This document shows, piece after piece, positions 35,624 through 52,348 of a stretch of 64,000 nt of DNA; the stretch's first letter is position 1; the number at the start of each line of letters is the position of its first letter. The notes under the pieces were generated by a model. That model was not told the DNA's origin. It was given only the letters and a program-made list of their open reading frames with translations, and did no database searches. The DNA is from Collinsella sp. BG-O-102 (GTDB taxonomy: Bacteria > Actinomycetota > Coriobacteriia > Coriobacteriales > Coriobacteriaceae), in assembly GCF_023656745.1 (NCBI RefSeq), contig NZ_JAMOKO010000011.1, positions 1 through 64,000 of the forward strand. The letters run 5' to 3'. A program made the position numbers and the translations under genes.

Positions 35624-35685
35624 GGGAACGGTACGGGACAGTGCGCAGTAGTGCGAGCTGTCCGTCGTGGTAGATCTAAATAAAC

Positions 35686-35716
35686 GGTGGGACGGCTGCA
35701 AAAGAGCCGCCCCACC
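35686..35716 (+). terminator. Hairpin downstream of the zinc-ribbon gene
   Basis: GGTGGG-A-CGGCT pairs with AGCCG-C-CCACC with one internal mismatch. No T-run follows, so it may be a 3' stabiliser instead of a terminator. Confidence 0.35.
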
Positions 35717-35799
35717 GGGCAAAATCAAGGTGTGCCGCGGAACCCGCTCCTCAGTCGGTCAACTTTGGAAGCGCGGGCAACGCAGGTGCTAATGTCTAA

Positions 35800-35825
35800 A
35801 GGGCCGGGGCAACCGGCCCTTTTCT
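35800..35825 (+). terminator. Terminator in the gap after the zinc-ribbon gene
   Basis: AGGGCCGG (35800-35807) pairs with CCGGCCCT (35813-35820), followed by TTTCT. The rest of this 311-bp convergent gap shows nothing recognisable. Confidence 0.6.
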
Positions 35826-44957: not shown

Positions 44958-44986
44958 TTGCGTGATACCATACTGACAGTAATAAT
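44958..44986 (+). promoter_or_regulatory. Promoter ahead of the cobalamin riboswitch
   Basis: TTGCGT (44958-44963) and AATAAT (44981-44986) with 17-base spacing would start transcription at about 44993, just ahead of the riboswitch. Confidence 0.4.
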
Positions 44987-44990
44987 CGAT

Positions 44991-45168
44991 GGCCTAGATG
45001 GTGGTGCGGAGACGCACGAATGCGTGGTTTTCCTGCGCGTTTGGGAGAATCGGGGTGCAAGTCCCCGGCTGTACCAGTAACCGTAATTCCTCTTGGCCCG
45101 GGATAGTCGCGTCGCAGATCGGACGGCGCGCCCGGGTCGGTAAGGTTAAGTCGGATCGCCTCCCATCT
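44991..45168 (+). ncRNA. Cobalamin (B12) riboswitch
   Basis: The core GGGAGAATCGGGGTGCAAGT, continuing CCCCGGCTGTACCAGTAACCG (45043-45083), matches the conserved P4-P6 centre of AdoCbl-class aptamers, including the GGTGNAANNCC and the CAGTAACCG equivalents. The B12 box AAGTCGGATCGCCTCCC follows at 45148-45164, at the expected distance. A GC-rich region downstream (45170-45200) could form the expression platform. It lies in the leader of the two-gene DUF4430 surface operon, predicting that cobalamin represses those genes. Confidence 0.8.
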
Positions 45169-45311
45169 TGTACGCGGCCGCGGCGCATGCCGCCGGTACG
45201 CGTTGGGCTCTGGAGGGAAGGGGGACCCCGATGGGGGTACTCGAGCGCAATGTGCGCGATGACGTGGGGCAGCCGCTGGGCAATGCTCCAAGTTCAGACA
45301 ATAGGAGACAA

Positions 45312-48300
45312 ATGGATATGTTTGAGGACGAGTGCCAGCGCGCCTCGTGGCGTCGCCATGGAGCGATTGCCCGTGGCGTAGCCAAGCGCGGTCTGGTGGC
45401 GTTCCTGGCTTTTGCCATGGCTTTTGGCACCACGCCGGCGCAACTTTGGGCCGAGGGCGCCGAGGGCATTGCCGAGGCCGTCGCTTCGCAGGATGCGGAG
45501 CCGACGGGGGAAGATAGTTCCACGGCGACCGATGCTGACCAGGCGGCGACCGAGGATGAGAAGCCTGCAAAGGGCGCGGATACGAGTGATTCTGCCGCTT
45601 CTGCTGGCGCGCAGGAGAGCGGGTCGCAGGATGCTTCGCAGCCCGCTGCAAAAGTGGAGGCTGCCGCCGAGGCAAGTGCCAAAGTCGAGTCCGCTGTGCC
45701 GAGCGATGATGACGAGTCGGATATCGCTACCGCAGCATACGTGACGGTCGACTCCGTCAGTCTACTGAATGCCAAGGACCAAGATATCGTTTGGGGCTCT
45801 GCGTCCAATACTGCTCTCAAGGTTGGCGATACGATTAAGGTCGGCGCCTACTACGAGGACGACTGGGGCGACGACGAGGAGATTCTCGATTCCGAGTATG
45901 ATTGCCTTACGTACCAGTGGTACGTGGGCGACAAGCAGAGTTCCGCCCCCACTGCCTCAGGCTACACGCCCATCGAAGGCGCAACGTCGCGTGAGTTCAA
46001 GCTCACGGCCGCTCAGGCGGGCAAGTATGTTGCCTGCAAGGTGACCTATGGCTCGAGCAAGTGGGACAACAAGTTCACCGCAAGCACGAAGCTGGCGATT
46101 GTCGAGGACGAAGGCGCCACCACGCCTGCGACGCCCGATGCCAAGACGCTTGCCGAGGCCAAGCAGAAGCTCTCCACTTGGAAGCCGAGCCCGGTCTATG
46201 GCACCGACACCAATATCGTCGACATGCTCTCGGCCAAGCTCAAGGCGCTCGGCTACGCGAACGTGAAGCCGACTCTCAAGTCTGTGACCTTCGGTGCGAC
46301 CGACCCGGTCCAGCAGGGTGGCATCGCTGCAGATGGCACCATCACGTACTTCTTCCTGTCCAATGCGGAGAAGACCGTATCCGCGGATTGGTCGGTGCTG
46401 CGCCAGTTCAAACCTACTTATACGCTGACGCTCGGCAGCGAAATCGTCGAATTCACTCCCGAGTTCAATTCGACGCTCGCGTGGGATCAAGCCAAGGTTG
46501 AAACGTATCTGAGCGAACAGCTCGACGCCGCGACTCTTACCGCCTCGGTCAAGGCGGGCATCGCGCCTTCGACTGCCAAGGAAGAGGTGCTTCCCGGCGC
46601 GCTCTATGTGGGAGGCAAGAAGGTTGCCGACCTCACCTGGACGAGCGATTCGTCTGCGGCCAAGCTGACTTTGAGCTACGATTCCAATTACAACACGGTC
46701 TACAAGGTCGCCTACACTCATGGCAATGGCGACAAAAACGTGACGTTTACCGCGCGGGCAACACTATTTGTCCCTGGTTATGGCAACCCTCCCTCGACTG
46801 CAATTACGCGCGACTACCCGGTCAAGGTAGCCTCCAAGTCTGCCGAGGACATCGCTGCCGAGAAGGCCGAGCTCGAGGCCGCGCTTGCCAAGATTGACGG
46901 CCTGGTGAAGGACTATGCCGACTCGAGCAAGAGCGTTGACCTCTCGGCGATCGAGGGCGACTTCATCTTGCCCACGACGCGCAAGATCGGTGCCGGGTCT
47001 GCTAAGCTCTCGTATTCTTCCAATAACGAGTCCGTGGCAAAGGTTAACGGCTATCGCGTCATCGTCACCCGTGATATCGCCGGTGGCTCCAACACCGCCA
47101 CCATTACGGCAACGCTCACGCGCGATGGCATCACCGCCACGCGCGACATCACCGTGACGGTCAAGCCCATCGACGAGTCCGAGATCGACGCTGCCGTAGC
47201 ACAGATGCAGGCCGTCAAGGATGCCTACGCCACTTCAATCCTGGGCGCCAACACTTCCGCTCATGCGGTGAGTGCGAATCTCAGTCCCTGGAGTTCCGCC
47301 ATGGTCGCCGAGGACGGCACCATCTCGTACTCCAAGACGTACCAGACCGGCCAGATTCATGCCGACGATCTGCCTGGCTATGATGACATGTCCGGCACCA
47401 ATTGGCGCACGTACCGCTCGAGCGACACTTCTGTCATCGCGGACGAGACGCTGCGCGTGACCCAGCCCGAGGCTGACACGCTCGTCACGGTGGAGAGCTC
47501 GCTTACCTATGAGAAGTATGAGGCGCTCGCCAAAGCTCATCCGGATAACGCCAAGCTTCAGAGCCTGGTCAATCAGTCGGTTAAAGCGACGTATCGTGTG
47601 GTGGGTACGACCGACCACTCCGATCCTCAGATTTCGGTCAACTTCAAGCTTGTGGGTGTTAGCGCCGACGGCAGCGATGAGGTTTGGTTCGACGGCGCGC
47701 AGAGCGTTGGCTACGGCTCAACTGCCGATGCCCTGATTGAGCAGATCTTGGATGCCCAGGGTCTCGCTCACACCTCCGGTACCACGGAATATGGTTACTA
47801 TCTCTCCGATATCACCTCAAGCGATGGCCGTACGCTTGGCTGGGATGCAGCCACGCGTAAGTACTGGCAGCTTTTCGTAAACGGTAAAGCATCCGAGGTT
47901 GGCGCCAGCAGTGTGACGCTTGGCGCGGGCGACTCTATCGCTTTGTACTACTCTGCCCTTGGCGCAAGCCTTGATGATGCGAATAAGGCCACCGTTAAGG
48001 CGTCGGTGAGCTTCATTGGGCCAGATGAGAATGGCGGCAACTCCGTGTGGGCGTCTGCCGCTGACGTCAAGATGTCTGATGGATCCACGGCAGCCGACCT
48101 TACCGAGCAGCAGCTCAAGGCAGCAGGTCTCACCTATGACAGCCAGGGTACTTCTGGGACTTCGTTCTACCTTGCCAGCATTACGCGCGCAGGCAAGACG
48201 TATCGCTGGGACCAGTCGACCGGCAGGTACTGGCAGCTCTATGTCAACGGCGAGAAGTCTCAAAAGATGGCGGGCCAGGTTACCCTCAAGCCGGGAGACA

Positions 48301-50216
48301 AGCTTCAGTGGGTTTACGCTGCAGATAGCGAGAAGCCCCTGGAGGGCCCCATTGTCAATCCCTTTGCTCCCCGTCCGGACTGGACCGCAAGCTGGAACGG
48401 CTTTGGCAATGCGGGCAGCACGACGCTTGTGAATACCCCGACGCCTACCGAGTCGGCTACGGAGCTGTGGAAGGTCAATCTGGCAACGGCAGCCGACAAG
48501 TGGGTTTCGCTGGGCGACCCCATCATTGCGGGCGGCTACGTTTTCGTTACCACGAACTCTGAGCTCGTCAAGATCGATGGCACGGGCAAAGTTGTCGCGC
48601 GTGTTTCCAAGGGCGGCACCACTTCGTATTTTTCGCGTCCTGTATACGCGGATGGTCTGATCATCTCGGCAAACGACGACGGTTCTGTGTACGCCTTCTC
48701 CGCTGAGACGCTTGAATGCGTGTGGAAGACGCCTGCGCTCAAGGCTCCTGCTGCTGGCGGGCGCTATCAGGCAAATTCGACTATGACGGTGGCAAACGGC
48801 TGCGTGTATGCCGAGTTTGTCACGGGCGCTGGCGCTTTTGGCACCGCAACTGGCGGAGCTATGCTTTGCATCGACATTGCGACGGGCAAGATCGTCTGGT
48901 CGGACGTCACCACAAAGAGCGGCTCCTCCACTGGTGAGGGTTATTACTGGGCGGGCGCTGCCGCTTCTGATTCCGATCTTGTTATCGGCGACGAGGGCGG
49001 TTGCGTGAAACTCATCGACGGCAAGACCGGTAAGGTCAAGTCTTCTGTCGGCCTGTCCGGCAATCCCGTGCGCGCAACGATCGTCTCTGCTGGCACCGAG
49101 AACGGTAACCCGGTCTTCTTGGCGGTTGGTCGCCAGCCGGCAACGCTCTATAAGATTGTGCGTGAGGGCGACACGCTTCGTATTGCCAGCTCTTGCGCAT
49201 TTGCGAACACTTCGACTTCGACGCCGGCCGTGGCAAACGGCAAGGCCTATATCGGCGGAAGCGACGCTTCGAACAACGGCCAGTTCACCGTTATCGACCT
49301 TGCGTCTATGACGGTCGAAAAGTCGTTTGACATGGGAAAATATGCCGAGGTCAAGGCTTCACCGATTGCATCCGTGCAGGCTGGCGGCGTTTATGTCTAC
49401 TATACGTGCAACAAGACTCCCGGCGCCTTGTACTGCTTCAACCAGTTGACCGGCGAGGTTGCGGAGATCTATACGCCGTCCGGATCCAATGCGAATTACT
49501 GCACCGCAAGTGTAATCGCGGATGCCAGGGGCAATCTCTACTACACCAATGATTCCGGCACGCTCTTTGCTCTCAAGGCGGTTCCGGGCTTTACGGTTTC
49601 CTTTGACGCGCGCGGCGGCAGCGCGGTCCCCAGCGCGCTGACCGCGCAGAACAAGACCATGGTCGCCCCTGCGAATCCCGAGCGCGCCGGCTTCACCTTC
49701 GCCGGCTGGTACAAGGACGCCGCGTGCACCCAGGCCTGGAACTTCGCCAAGGACGTCGTGACGGCCGATATGACGCTCTACGCCAAGTGGACCAAGAATG
49801 CCGTTACCCCTGGCGGTAACGGTGGCTCTGGCTCCAATGGCGGCAATGGCGGCTCGGGTAATGCCGGTGCTGGTTCTGGCTCCGGTAACGGCACAAACGG
49901 CCAGCAGACTGGCGGTGCTGTTGCTCCGGGTCAGAAGCCGGTGTCTGCCACGACTACAACGGAGACCAAGGACGGCAAGGATTCCAAGAAGGATTCCGAC
50001 AAGGGCGACAAGAAGGACAGCAAGAAGTCTGACAAGAAGTCCGGCAAGTCCAGCTCCAAGTCCGATACGGGCTCGTCTGCTACGACCGCTGCTAAGAAGT
50101 CTGCCGAGGCTTCCGCGCAGGAGTCTGGCGTCAATCCGCTCGCCATCGTTGGTGTGACGGCTGGCGTGGTCGGACTCGCCGTCATCGGTGTGTTCGTGCT
50201 CACCAAGCGTCGGTAG
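45312..50216 (+). CDS. Giant surface protein with two DUF4430 domains, PQQ-like propeller and C-terminal anchor
   Basis: About 1,634 residues. A Sec signal (GLVAFLAFAMAFGTTPAQLWA) is followed by an acidic linker, Ig-like regions, then two DUF4430 domains near 773-884 and 896-1006, each with YWQLFVNG/YWQLYVNG. DUF4430 is the transcobalamin C-terminal-like fold. A PQQ-like beta-propeller (about 1035-1423) and one Listeria-Bacteroides repeat (about 1425-1495, ending TLYAKWTKN) follow. A Gly/Ser then Lys/Ser-rich wall-spanning stretch leads to a membrane helix ending TKRR; no LPXTG is seen. A B12 riboswitch precedes it, so I infer corrinoid capture. ATG 45312 follows GGAG; in-frame codons upstream lie inside the riboswitch. 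Confidence 0.82.
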   Translation: MDMFEDECQRASWRRHGAIARGVAKRGLVAFLAFAMAFGTTPAQLWAEGAEGIAEAVASQDAEPTGEDSSTATDADQAATEDEKPAKGADTSDSAASAGAQESGSQDASQPAAKVEAAAEASAKVESAVPSDDDESDIATAAYVTVDSVSLLNAKDQDIVWGSASNTALKVGDTIKVGAYYEDDWGDDEEILDSEYDCLTYQWYVGDKQSSAPTASGYTPIEGATSREFKLTAAQAGKYVACKVTYGSSKWDNKFTASTKLAIVEDEGATTPATPDAKTLAEAKQKLSTWKPSPVYGTDTNIVDMLSAKLKALGYANVKPTLKSVTFGATDPVQQGGIAADGTITYFFLSNAEKTVSADWSVLRQFKPTYTLTLGSEIVEFTPEFNSTLAWDQAKVETYLSEQLDAATLTASVKAGIAPSTAKEEVLPGALYVGGKKVADLTWTSDSSAAKLTLSYDSNYNTVYKVAYTHGNGDKNVTFTARATLFVPGYGNPPSTAITRDYPVKVASKSAEDIAAEKAELEAALAKIDGLVKDYADSSKSVDLSAIEGDFILPTTRKIGAGSAKLSYSSNNESVAKVNGYRVIVTRDIAGGSNTATITATLTRDGITATRDITVTVKPIDESEIDAAVAQMQAVKDAYATSILGANTSAHAVSANLSPWSSAMVAEDGTISYSKTYQTGQIHADDLPGYDDMSGTNWRTYRSSDTSVIADETLRVTQPEADTLVTVESSLTYEKYEALAKAHPDNAKLQSLVNQSVKATYRVVGTTDHSDPQISVNFKLVGVSADGSDEVWFDGAQSVGYGSTADALIEQILDAQGLAHTSGTTEYGYYLSDITSSDGRTLGWDAATRKYWQLFVNGKASEVGASSVTLGAGDSIALYYSALGASLDDANKATVKASVSFIGPDENGGNSVWASAADVKMSDGSTAADLTEQQLKAAGLTYDSQGTSGTSFYLASITRAGKTYRWDQSTGRYWQLYVNGEKSQKMAGQVTLKPGDKLQWVYAADSEKPLEGPIVNPFAPRPDWTASWNGFGNAGSTTLVNTPTPTESATELWKVNLATAADKWVSLGDPIIAGGYVFVTTNSELVKIDGTGKVVARVSKGGTTSYFSRPVYADGLIISANDDGSVYAFSAETLECVWKTPALKAPAAGGRYQANSTMTVANGCVYAEFVTGAGAFGTATGGAMLCIDIATGKIVWSDVTTKSGSSTGEGYYWAGAAASDSDLVIGDEGGCVKLIDGKTGKVKSSVGLSGNPVRATIVSAGTENGNPVFLAVGRQPATLYKIVREGDTLRIASSCAFANTSTSTPAVANGKAYIGGSDASNNGQFTVIDLASMTVEKSFDMGKYAEVKASPIASVQAGGVYVYYTCNKTPGALYCFNQLTGEVAEIYTPSGSNANYCTASVIADARGNLYYTNDSGTLFALKAVPGFTVSFDARGGSAVPSALTAQNKTMVAPANPERAGFTFAGWYKDAACTQAWNFAKDVVTADMTLYAKWTKNAVTPGGNGGSGSNGGNGGSGNAGAGSGSGNGTNGQQTGGAVAPGQKPVSATTTTETKDGKDSKKDSDKGDKKDSKKSDKKSGKSSSKSDTGSSATTAAKKSAEASAQESGVNPLAIVGVTAGVVGLAVIGVFVLTKRR

Positions 50217-50225
50217 GTGAGGGCC

Positions 50226-51086
50226 GTGTCCAATAAACCACAGGACGCCGACTCCAAGCAGCCCGACTCGTCGTTCATTCAGCTCGACGATGCAAAGCAA
50301 AAGGGCGCCGCTTCGGCGGCGTCCGCCCCTCGGCGCAAGGCGCTTGTTGGCGTCCTGACAGCCGCCTGTATTGCACTCATCGTCGTCTCGTTGGGTTTTG
50401 TACACCCCTCTGCCAGCGGTGCATGGTCTATCGATTGGATTGCTCAGGCCGTGACAGGGGAGAGCGTTGTTGACAAGGATGCGTCGGTTTCCGGCTCGAC
50501 TACCACTTCGGGCAAGGCTGCGCCCAAGGACTCCAAATCCTCGGACAATGCGAAGGGCGGGTCGAAGGACTCAAAAAAGGATTCGAAGGAGAAGAAGTCC
50601 GAAGGCAAGGGCGGCAAGAAGTCCAACAACACGTCTGCCGAACAGGGTTCGGAATCCACCGGCGGGTCTAGCTCTTCTGACGGCGCCTCTTCGGGCGCTG
50701 GCTCGGCGACCGGTGGTGGGTCTGCATCTAACGGCGGCAATGCCTCGTCGGGTAACCAGGGCGGCTCACAGCAGCCTGGCTACGTCACAGTGACGGTTTC
50801 GGTCACATCGAGCGCCGTGGGCAATCCTGTGTCTTCTGGCGGCACCTTCACCTTTAACGAGGGCGCTACGGTCTACGATGCCCTGTGCGCTCTGGGCCTT
50901 TCCGTCAATGCGCACGGCTCGTCATACGGAACGTATGTTGCCGCTATTGGCGGTCTAGCCGAGAAGGAGCACGGCAGCACGAGCGGCTGGATGTACTCCG
51001 TTAACGGTGTGGCGCCCAACACGGCGTGCAGCAACTACGTCCTATCTAACGGCGACAGAGTTGTCTGGTATTACGTAACGGGCTAA
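50226..51086 (+). CDS. Membrane-anchored DUF4430 protein
   Basis: About 286 residues. An N-terminal membrane helix (ALVGVLTAACIALIVVSLGF, about 40-60) anchors an external Lys/Ser/Gly-rich stalk (about 100-190). The C-terminal DUF4430 domain (about 190-286) has VTVSVTSSAV, GATVYDALCALGL, GWMYSVNGV and VVWYYVTG. The gene starts within ten bases of the upstream stop, so it shares the riboswitch-controlled transcript. It may form a second binding site or pass ligand to a membrane transporter; no ABC transporter gene is adjacent. GTG 50226 follows AGGTGAG; GTG 50217 is an alternative. Confidence 0.8.
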   Translation: MSNKPQDADSKQPDSSFIQLDDAKQKGAASAASAPRRKALVGVLTAACIALIVVSLGFVHPSASGAWSIDWIAQAVTGESVVDKDASVSGSTTTSGKAAPKDSKSSDNAKGGSKDSKKDSKEKKSEGKGGKKSNNTSAEQGSESTGGSSSSDGASSGAGSATGGGSASNGGNASSGNQGGSQQPGYVTVTVSVTSSAVGNPVSSGGTFTFNEGATVYDALCALGLSVNAHGSSYGTYVAAIGGLAEKEHGSTSGWMYSVNGVAPNTACSNYVLSNGDRVVWYYVTG

Positions 51087-51107
51087 ATGCCTCGACATAA
51101 CACGCCA

Positions 51108-51146
51108 AACGGGCGGTTCGGATAAACATCCGAGCCGCCCGTTTTT
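51108..51146 (+). terminator. Terminator of the DUF4430 operon
   Basis: A 15-bp stem (51108-51122 with 51129-51143, one mismatch) beginning AACGGGCGG and ending in TTTTT. Confidence 0.85.
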
Positions 51147-51246: not shown

Positions 51247-51654
51247 CTACGACTGCGCGCCCTCGAGGAAAAAGCGACGGCTAAAGTAGTTGTACCAGGT
51301 GACCAGGAACGTTGCGATGGCCTTCATGGCCTGGTAGCCGATGCTCAAAAACGTGACGCCCACAAACATGTACAGGTCGTTGAGACCCAGGCCAATCACC
51401 GACAGGATGGTGAAGATCGTGAACTCGCGCTTGCGGCTCATGCCCTCGCGGTGGTCGAACACGTACTTCATGCTGAGCCAGTAGTTAACCACGACGGATG
51501 TGGTAAACGAGACCGTGGTGCTCATCAAAAAGTCGAGGTGGAACAGCTCGACGAGCGCAATGAGCATACCCCAGTCGATGCCAAAGGAGATAAGTCCCAC
51601 GACAGCGAACTTGAGGAACTGCTTGGTATGAGGTTGTGCCAGTGCCTTGCGCAC
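51247..51654 (-). CDS. GtrA family membrane protein 1
   Basis: A 135-residue four-helix membrane protein of the GtrA family (PF04138), thought to help flip or modify polyprenyl-linked sugars. Signatures are QFLKFAVVGLISFGIDWGML and the C-terminal WYNYFSRRFFLEG. A GTG start at 51654 is inferred from alignment with the second GtrA (MQKLLAQIMKFG); the frame extends to a TTG at 51735 without a Shine-Dalgarno. About 60 bases upstream the sequence ATGCAAAAGCTCTAA encodes MQKL then a stop, matching the start of the second copy. Confidence 0.85.
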   Translation of the reverse strand: MRKALAQPHTKQFLKFAVVGLISFGIDWGMLIALVELFHLDFLMSTTVSFTTSVVVNYWLSMKYVFDHREGMSRKREFTIFTILSVIGLGLNDLYMFVGVTFLSIGYQAMKAIATFLVTWYNYFSRRFFLEGAQS

Positions 51655-51874
51655 GTAATCACATCCAATGCGTTGATGAATCGAGCAACGAGATACTTTA
51701 GAGCTTTTGCATGGGAAACGTAAGGTCTTTGGCAAGAACTATACGAACTCGCCAAATACTCAAGAGGTAATCCGCAAACGTTGCAAATCTTCCCGTAAAC
51801 GAGCAAGGCCCACGAGCAACGCAGCACTCGACGCGCGTCATCCGCAGGTCCCGTAGTGCATCGAGGAGACCGGG

Positions 51875-52270
51875 CTACTTGGTCTGCTCGCCCTCCAGGA
51901 AAATTTTGCGCGTTACAAAGTTGTAGACCATGACCAGTGCGGTGGCGCAAATCTTGGCGATATTGGCCTCGAGGCCCAGGCCGGCGTTGAGGGCCAGCAC
52001 GATGCCGTCGTTGAGCGCCAGGCCAATAACGGACAACACGACAAAGATGATGAACTCGCGGCGGCGGCTCATGCCCTCCTTGTGTGCAAACACGTACTTC
52101 ATGCTCGCGACGTAGTTAAAGATGAGCGAGACGATAAAGCCGCTGGTGTTGGCGATCAGGATATTGAGGCCCAGACCGTAGTGGAGCAGATTCATGATGC
52201 CAAAGTCGATGACGGTGGCAACGACGCCGACGACGCCAAACTTCATGATCTGCGCAAGGAGCTTTTGCAT
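51875..52270 (-). CDS. GtrA family membrane protein 2
   Basis: A 131-residue GtrA protein with four hydrophobic helices: MQKLLAQIMKFGVVGVVATVIDFGIMNLL, then SGFIVSLIFNYVASMKYVFAHKEGMSRRREF and a C-terminal MVYNFVTRKIFLEG. Sequence and topology match the neighbour at 51247; the loop HKEGMSRRREF versus HREGMSRKREF is nearly the same. The ATG at 52270 follows AAGGCAGG. It is a tandem duplicate on the same strand, between fbp and the first copy. No glycosyltransferase partner is in the window. Confidence 0.87.
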   Translation of the reverse strand: MQKLLAQIMKFGVVGVVATVIDFGIMNLLHYGLGLNILIANTSGFIVSLIFNYVASMKYVFAHKEGMSRRREFIIFVVLSVIGLALNDGIVLALNAGLGLEANIAKICATALVMVYNFVTRKIFLEGEQTK

Positions 52271-52348
52271 GACACCTGCCTTAGGGTGGCGCCGCAGCGC
52301 CGTGGGGATGGCAAACTCAGCAAGTTTAGCCAAACCCCGTAGGCGGGG

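Follow-up and report, generated by a model that had tools for sequence, protein, structure and literature searches.

The 64,000-nucleotide stretch of Collinsella sp. BG-O-102 analyzed here (the window) carries a two-gene unit with a regulatory leader at positions 44,958 to 51,146. This unit most likely encodes the surface half of an uptake system for corrinoids (vitamin B12-type compounds), which would be controlled by B12 and would feed an importer encoded elsewhere. Four mutually independent lines of evidence support this reading. The leader contains a covarying cobalamin-type riboswitch, and the DUF4430 domains of the encoded proteins have a transcobalamin-type predicted fold. In relatives, both genes share one operon with the energy-coupling factor (ECF) genes EcfT, EcfA, and EcfS, led by the same riboswitch or by a canonical cobalamin one, and the ECF system in the organism's own genome has an S component resembling CbrT. 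An initial annotation had proposed a Gram-positive, B12-repressed system for surface corrinoid capture, and these four lines support that core idea. The comparisons covered 45 genomes of the genus, 248 of the class, and 80 related loci from named genomes.

The leader and its riboswitch

At gathering thresholds, an Rfam scan found no riboswitch in the leader region, and the canonical cobalamin family RF00174 gave no match. A permissive scan matched positions 45031-45141 to the AdoCbl-II family RF01689 (30.5 bits, E 5.2e-5), below the family's gathering score of 36.5 bits, which is a curation cut-off rather than a biological feature. At the gathering thresholds alone, this riboswitch would have gone unnoticed. 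This leader was the sole RF01689 match in the whole genome. Exactly one match was likewise found in 42 of the 45 genus genomes, and four matches exceeded the gathering score (38.7-41.4 bits).

Covariation was assessed in an alignment of 20 diverse leaders (A1), with 500 shuffles and slid structures as controls. Standard pairs filled 94.4% of the cells of the A1 structure, compared to 31-43% in the slid controls. Both sides were altered at 21 pairs, in 84 cells, and none of the 500 shuffles reached as high. Compensatory changes were seen in all helices except P5 and a proposed long-range pairing, including five of the six pairs of the closing stem. A custom covariance model built from A1 (R1) matched the leader at 44993-45173 with 176 bits, a score to be read with the fact that this leader was in the building set. 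R1 also found the element in 86 of the 248 class genomes, one of which (G024) was missed by the Rfam model, and it matched most of the 80 related loci.

The aptamer, with P0, P2, P3-like, P4, P5, and a P6 arm, spans 44993-45173 on the + strand, where all features of the unit lie. It has the typical core GGGAGAATC-GGGGTGCAAGTCCCC-GGCTGTACCAGTAACCGT and a B12-box-like element, AAGTCGGATCGCCTCCC, at 45148-45164, so the riboswitch core and B12 box recognized in the initial annotation were both recovered. Relatives in the Eggerthellaceae have AAGTCGGAATACCTGCC in place of the B12-box-like element, a sequence near to the classical B12 box. The conserved core, P4/P5, the B12-box-like 3' element, and the position in the leader are common to the cobalamin and AdoCbl-II riboswitches of Rfam clan CL00101. 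Judged by sequence and covariation, the leader holds a member of this clan (RF00174/RF01689), diverged enough to score below the gathering threshold in its own genome, and it is predicted to bind cobalamin.

An extended -10-like element, TGATACCAT, at 44963-44971 is the putative promoter, based on its sequence and the leader alignment. TGnTAnnAT stands at this position in most relatives, and a promoter scan found no full sigma-70 site. At the other end, GGGCTCTGG and a purine-rich Shine-Dalgarno sequence directly before the start codon make up a conserved expression platform (45205-45230). The order CTGG, Shine-Dalgarno, and start codon was found in 40 of 40 Collinsella leaders and was also kept in most aptamer-bearing leaders of other genera. 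Known cobalamin riboswitches form a kissing loop between L5 and L13. By analogy, we propose that the CCAG of L5 (45074-45077), which is invariant in A1 and in other genera, pairs with CUGG at 45210-45213 and would thereby occlude the ribosome site. Covariation cannot test this pairing because both sides are invariant. Direct pairing of the B12-box region (CCTCCC) with the Shine-Dalgarno sequence was also considered but was rejected by eye since relatives do not retain it, in favor of the invariant CCAG/CUGG pair.

The conserved leader element also bears on the start of gene 1. It favors the in-frame ATG at 45231, 27 codons ahead of ATG 45312, and therefore the gene likely starts there and encodes 1,661 residues. 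The approximately 1,634 residues given in the initial annotation fit the downstream ATG.

Riboswitches of this type were also seen in other arrangements. Two Gordonibacter loci (L146, 4747-4863 and 5002-5177; L149, 4697-4822 and 4957-5132) have tandem copies before the same type of operon. In Candidatus Aphodovivens (L129; G246 C25:33776-33920) the riboswitch precedes genes without DUF4430 or ECF, including a gene resembling a flavin adenine dinucleotide (FAD)-dependent oxidoreductase.

Surface proteins and the predicted transcobalamin-type fold

Gene 1 occupies 45231-50216. Its protein bears a hydrophobic signal-like segment and ends in a predicted transmembrane anchor with a basic tail (50127-50213). 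Between them lie an immunoglobulin-like stalk domain of the aBig_2 family (46938-47165), which matched just under the Pfam cut-off, two DUF4430 domains (47718-47954 and 48081-48320), an eight-bladed beta-propeller (48498-49577), and a List_Bact_rpt (InlB B-type) domain (49590-49787). Gene 2 adjoins the stop codon of gene 1, with its start at GTG 50217 or 50226. It ends at 51086 and encodes a 289-residue protein with an N-terminal transmembrane anchor and a third DUF4430 domain (50862-51077). An LPXTG-type sortase signal was looked for in both proteins and was absent; the transmembrane segments would serve as anchors instead. The layout described by the initial annotation, with a secreted, C-terminally anchored first protein that includes a propeller, an anchored second protein, and three DUF4430 domains, was confirmed in each of these parts.

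The three DUF4430 domains, the only ones in the genome, matched the Pfam profile with 74.9, 51.3, and 41.6 bits against a cut-off of 23.8. Those of gene 1 are folded in model ma18038dc3b09, and the predicted structure of the gene 2 domain has a mean pLDDT (predicted local distance difference test score) of 95. When the gene 2 model was searched with Foldseek, all 19 matches at E <= 0.001 were transcobalamin, haptocorrin, intrinsic factor, or the related Ruminococcus gnavus structure 3u7z. VIA-align gave Z scores of 13.9-15.4 for this group and 8.5 for the next fold. The sequence of a single DUF4430 domain found no match among solved structures, and the only credible match of the DUF4430 profile there was 3u7z. 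According to the predicted structures, DUF4430 has the fold of the C-terminal beta-domain of transcobalamin, haptocorrin, and intrinsic factor, in agreement with the resemblance to transcobalamin raised in the initial annotation. The domain superimposes on the three human carriers with Z scores of 14-15 and a root-mean-square deviation (rmsd) of 1.6-2.2, in contrast to a sequence identity of only 14-20%. An alpha/alpha-barrel domain was not among the Pfam matches of either protein. For this reason the proteins were placed only in the SLBB/DUF4430 clade and not in the transcobalamin family proper.

The propeller is of the BamB/YxaL type. Its sequence matched BamB and pyrroloquinoline quinone (PQQ) dehydrogenases, and its predicted structure aligned with YxaL over 338 residues (Z 40.8, rmsd 2.1) and with BamB at a Z of about 35. 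Predicted together, the DUF4430 pair and the propeller of gene 1 have a mean pLDDT of 93. BtuG, the surface propeller protein of Bacteroides brought up by the initial annotation, was looked for as a homologue and did not appear in the sequence or fold match lists of the propeller, an absence that does not exclude homology. The comparison with BtuG therefore stands as an analogy at most. BtuG and BtuH also capture B12 at the cell surface under cobalamin riboswitches and are multidomain proteins, some with a beta-propeller, but they belong to another phylum with another envelope (PMC8941943). The Bacteroides system uses BtuBCDF, whereas here the binding domain would be DUF4430 and the transport of the ECF type.

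Importer genes, relatives, and competing explanations

In the own genome, ECF genes were found outside the window on a separate contig (C45:49390-52662). The S component encoded there is related to that of ECF-CbrT from Lactobacillus delbrueckii (E 1e-5 over 169 residues against the 182-residue chain A of 6FNP, the ECF-CbrT entry; PMC5997447). By sequence, the genome holds a CbrT-type ECF B12 importer set (EcfT, EcfA, and the CbrT-related S component), for which cobalamin transport is predicted. The initial annotation had placed an ATP-binding cassette (ABC) importer elsewhere in the genome; the importer genes are indeed on another contig, but they are of the ECF type and not of the classical binding-protein-dependent ABC type. 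Lipoproteins, solute-binding proteins, and riboswitches go unmentioned in the CbrT study (PMC5997447); in the present case the importer family is found together with surface receptors and a riboswitch.

Across the class genomes and the related loci, a recurrent operon consists of a propeller protein bearing as many as five DUF4430 domains, a second DUF4430 protein, EcfT, EcfA, and EcfS. In Slackia, Eggerthella, Gordonibacter, Olsenella, Cuneatibacter, and others, EcfT-EcfA-EcfS come after the two surface genes, and the propeller protein, second DUF4430 protein, EcfT, and EcfS occur together in 41 of the 80 loci. Canonical RF00174 riboswitches lie directly upstream in Cuneatibacter (88.5 bits), Candidatus Soleaferrea (77.3 bits), and an Atopobiaceae metagenome-assembled genome (76.5 bits), all above the cut-off of the family, and RF01689 exceeds its cut-off in Slackia equolifaciens and Rubneribacter (38.4-39.3 bits). 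Some Collinsella relatives (L047, L048, L051, L052, and L041) have the riboswitch, a DUF4430 lipoprotein, EcfT, and fused EcfA-S reading frames in this order. A minimal form of the system is a DUF4430 lipoprotein with ECF only. One of these frames (L048 4584-6827) is a single one of 748 residues that corresponds to a fused EcfA1-EcfA2-EcfS. In another Collinsella genome (G030), gene 2 was kept (L113 10216-11097) and the propeller gene and its riboswitch were apparently lost. A weak R1 match in G030 (C10:222228; L112 1729-1850) is away from DUF4430 and precedes a gene for a 1,522-residue surface protein.

Several observations weigh against corrinoid capture by this unit as we propose it. The window's own aptamer scores below both Rfam thresholds, and the CCAG/CUGG pairing is without covariation support. 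Neither protein was found to contain the alpha-barrel that contributes much of the B12 site in transcobalamin. The joint absence of the riboswitch, DUF4430, and the S component speaks for the proposal but was seen in just one of the 45 Collinsella genomes (G040), which keeps a B12-binding protein. In addition, the own genome has a cbi cluster with CbiD, CobU, CobS, and CbiK, as well as TP_methylase genes, and may therefore make corrinoids, and an importer of the FecCD/Peripla_BP_2 type beside this cluster could be the receptor's partner instead.

One alternative keeps the uptake system as proposed but has it naturally carry, in place of complete cobalamin, an incomplete or otherwise different corrinoid (cobinamide, cobyrinate derivatives, or pseudo-B12) that would be finished by the cell's own CobU and CobS. 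The presence of the CobU, CobS, CbiD, and TP_methylase genes fits this idea, as does the binding of cobinamide besides cobalamin by CbrT and BtuF (PMC5997447). Collinsella aerofaciens is reported to need B12 for growth despite having synthesis genes (PMC6593275), which is also consistent with it. A cobalamin-type riboswitch senses the finished cofactor and not necessarily the cargo and so does not separate the two possibilities. We consider this alternative unlikely. The own genome also has a B12-dependent methionine synthase, which favors the main reading, and the organism may both make and scavenge corrinoids.

Another possible explanation is that the receptor feeds the FecCD/Peripla_BP_2 importer on contig C41 and not the ECF importer. 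At this locus (L217 1851-7495) the genes for the FecCD permease, the Peripla_BP_2 binding protein, an ABC ATPase, and CbiK adjoin the cbi cluster of the same genome. On the other hand, the operon partners of DUF4430 genes in dozens of relatives are EcfT-A-S and not FecCD, and the ECF S component is CbrT-like, making a FecCD partner improbable. The C41 locus is a possible second importer of corrinoids or tetrapyrroles. No riboswitch was found at it, and the N-terminal half of its Peripla_BP_2 protein has no assigned domain.

The proteins could also be adhesins or structural proteins of the wall that happen to be regulated by B12, with a DUF4430 ligand other than a corrinoid. Their long stalk, immunoglobulin-like and List_Bact_rpt domains, and highly variable N-terminal region would suit such a role, and beta-grasp domains bind varied ligands (PMC1796856). 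Nevertheless, we hold this to be quite improbable given that operons in several families, and also in Clostridia, repeatedly link them to CbrT-like ECF genes and to cobalamin riboswitches, together with the minimal form that pairs a DUF4430 lipoprotein with ECF only. Finally, a decayed or chance riboswitch-like leader without function would agree with the scores below the gathering thresholds in the window, but it is contradicted by the compensatory changes, the outcome of the shuffles, and the retention of the element at the same position across genera, and is extremely improbable.

Other features were noted around the unit. A terminator-like hairpin followed by a T-run lies at 51110-51146, and its end agrees with the end of the unit at 51146 in the initial annotation; the terminator scan did not list this hairpin, whose stem is bulged. 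Just downstream on the opposite strand, 51247-52333 encodes two small membrane proteins that resemble each other and may be GtrA-like, and similar reading frames lie close to the operon at several Collinsella loci. A full-length Collinsella-1 RNA (RF01700) was found in the window at 35627-35819 (+) with 185 bits.

Proposed mechanism and significance

For corrinoid capture controlled by B12, we propose the following mechanism. When cobalamin is high in the cell, the leader aptamer would fold and the L5 CCAG would pair with the CUGG beside the Shine-Dalgarno sequence, so that gene 1 would not be translated and, through coupling, neither would gene 2. Under cobalamin shortage, both proteins would be produced. 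The gene 1 protein would act as a long receptor anchored in the membrane, with two DUF4430 domains and the propeller exposed outside the cell, and the gene 2 protein would be held near the membrane. Both would bind corrinoid and hand it inward to the CbrT-like ECF importer. Tentatively, the propeller may replace the transcobalamin alpha-barrel, so that the corrinoid would be clamped between DUF4430 and the propeller, with extra DUF4430 domains as capture arms. If so, this type of receptor would have evolved apart from BtuG and the animal carriers. Bearing on the clamp are the strong conservation of propeller residues and the retention of the propeller in the operon even in a few loci without a detected DUF4430 domain in the same protein.

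The functional idea is not new, because the transcobalamin-like SLBB clade has been defined before with a prediction of B12 scavenging (Burroughs et al. 2007; PMC1796856). As described in that paper, proteins of this clade are likewise secreted or anchored beta-grasp proteins with immunoglobulin-like or beta-propeller fusions, a second SLBB partner, and ECF operons of the CbiO/CbiQ type. The sections consulted report no riboswitch link, which is present here. Compared to the systems described there, Collinsella keeps its ECF genes apart from the surface genes, the receptor bears two copies of DUF4430 (as many as five in relatives), and the S component has been linked to CbrT. A literature search, with most subscription journals outside its reach, found no earlier report linking a riboswitch to DUF4430 and no paper on the importer's kinship with CbrT, the operon seen across the class, its split in Collinsella, or the fold-level match. 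The riboswitch link appears to be new, and the other four points are additions of this analysis.

Surface B12 capture by Gram-positive gut bacteria is poorly known, and for many gut genomes, finding the systems that transport B12 has been described as an open problem (PMC6593275). Our results connect a cobalamin riboswitch and a CbrT-like importer with a widespread family of giant surface proteins, found in Collinsella, Eggerthella, Slackia, Gordonibacter, and Olsenella, whose building block is a "domain of unknown function," and they offer a compact receptor-importer pair that is open to testing. Very probably, this system is the way in which these Gram-positive bacteria capture B12. It is also relevant to the competition of gut Actinobacteria for corrinoids, both with Bacteroides and with a host that has carriers of the same fold.

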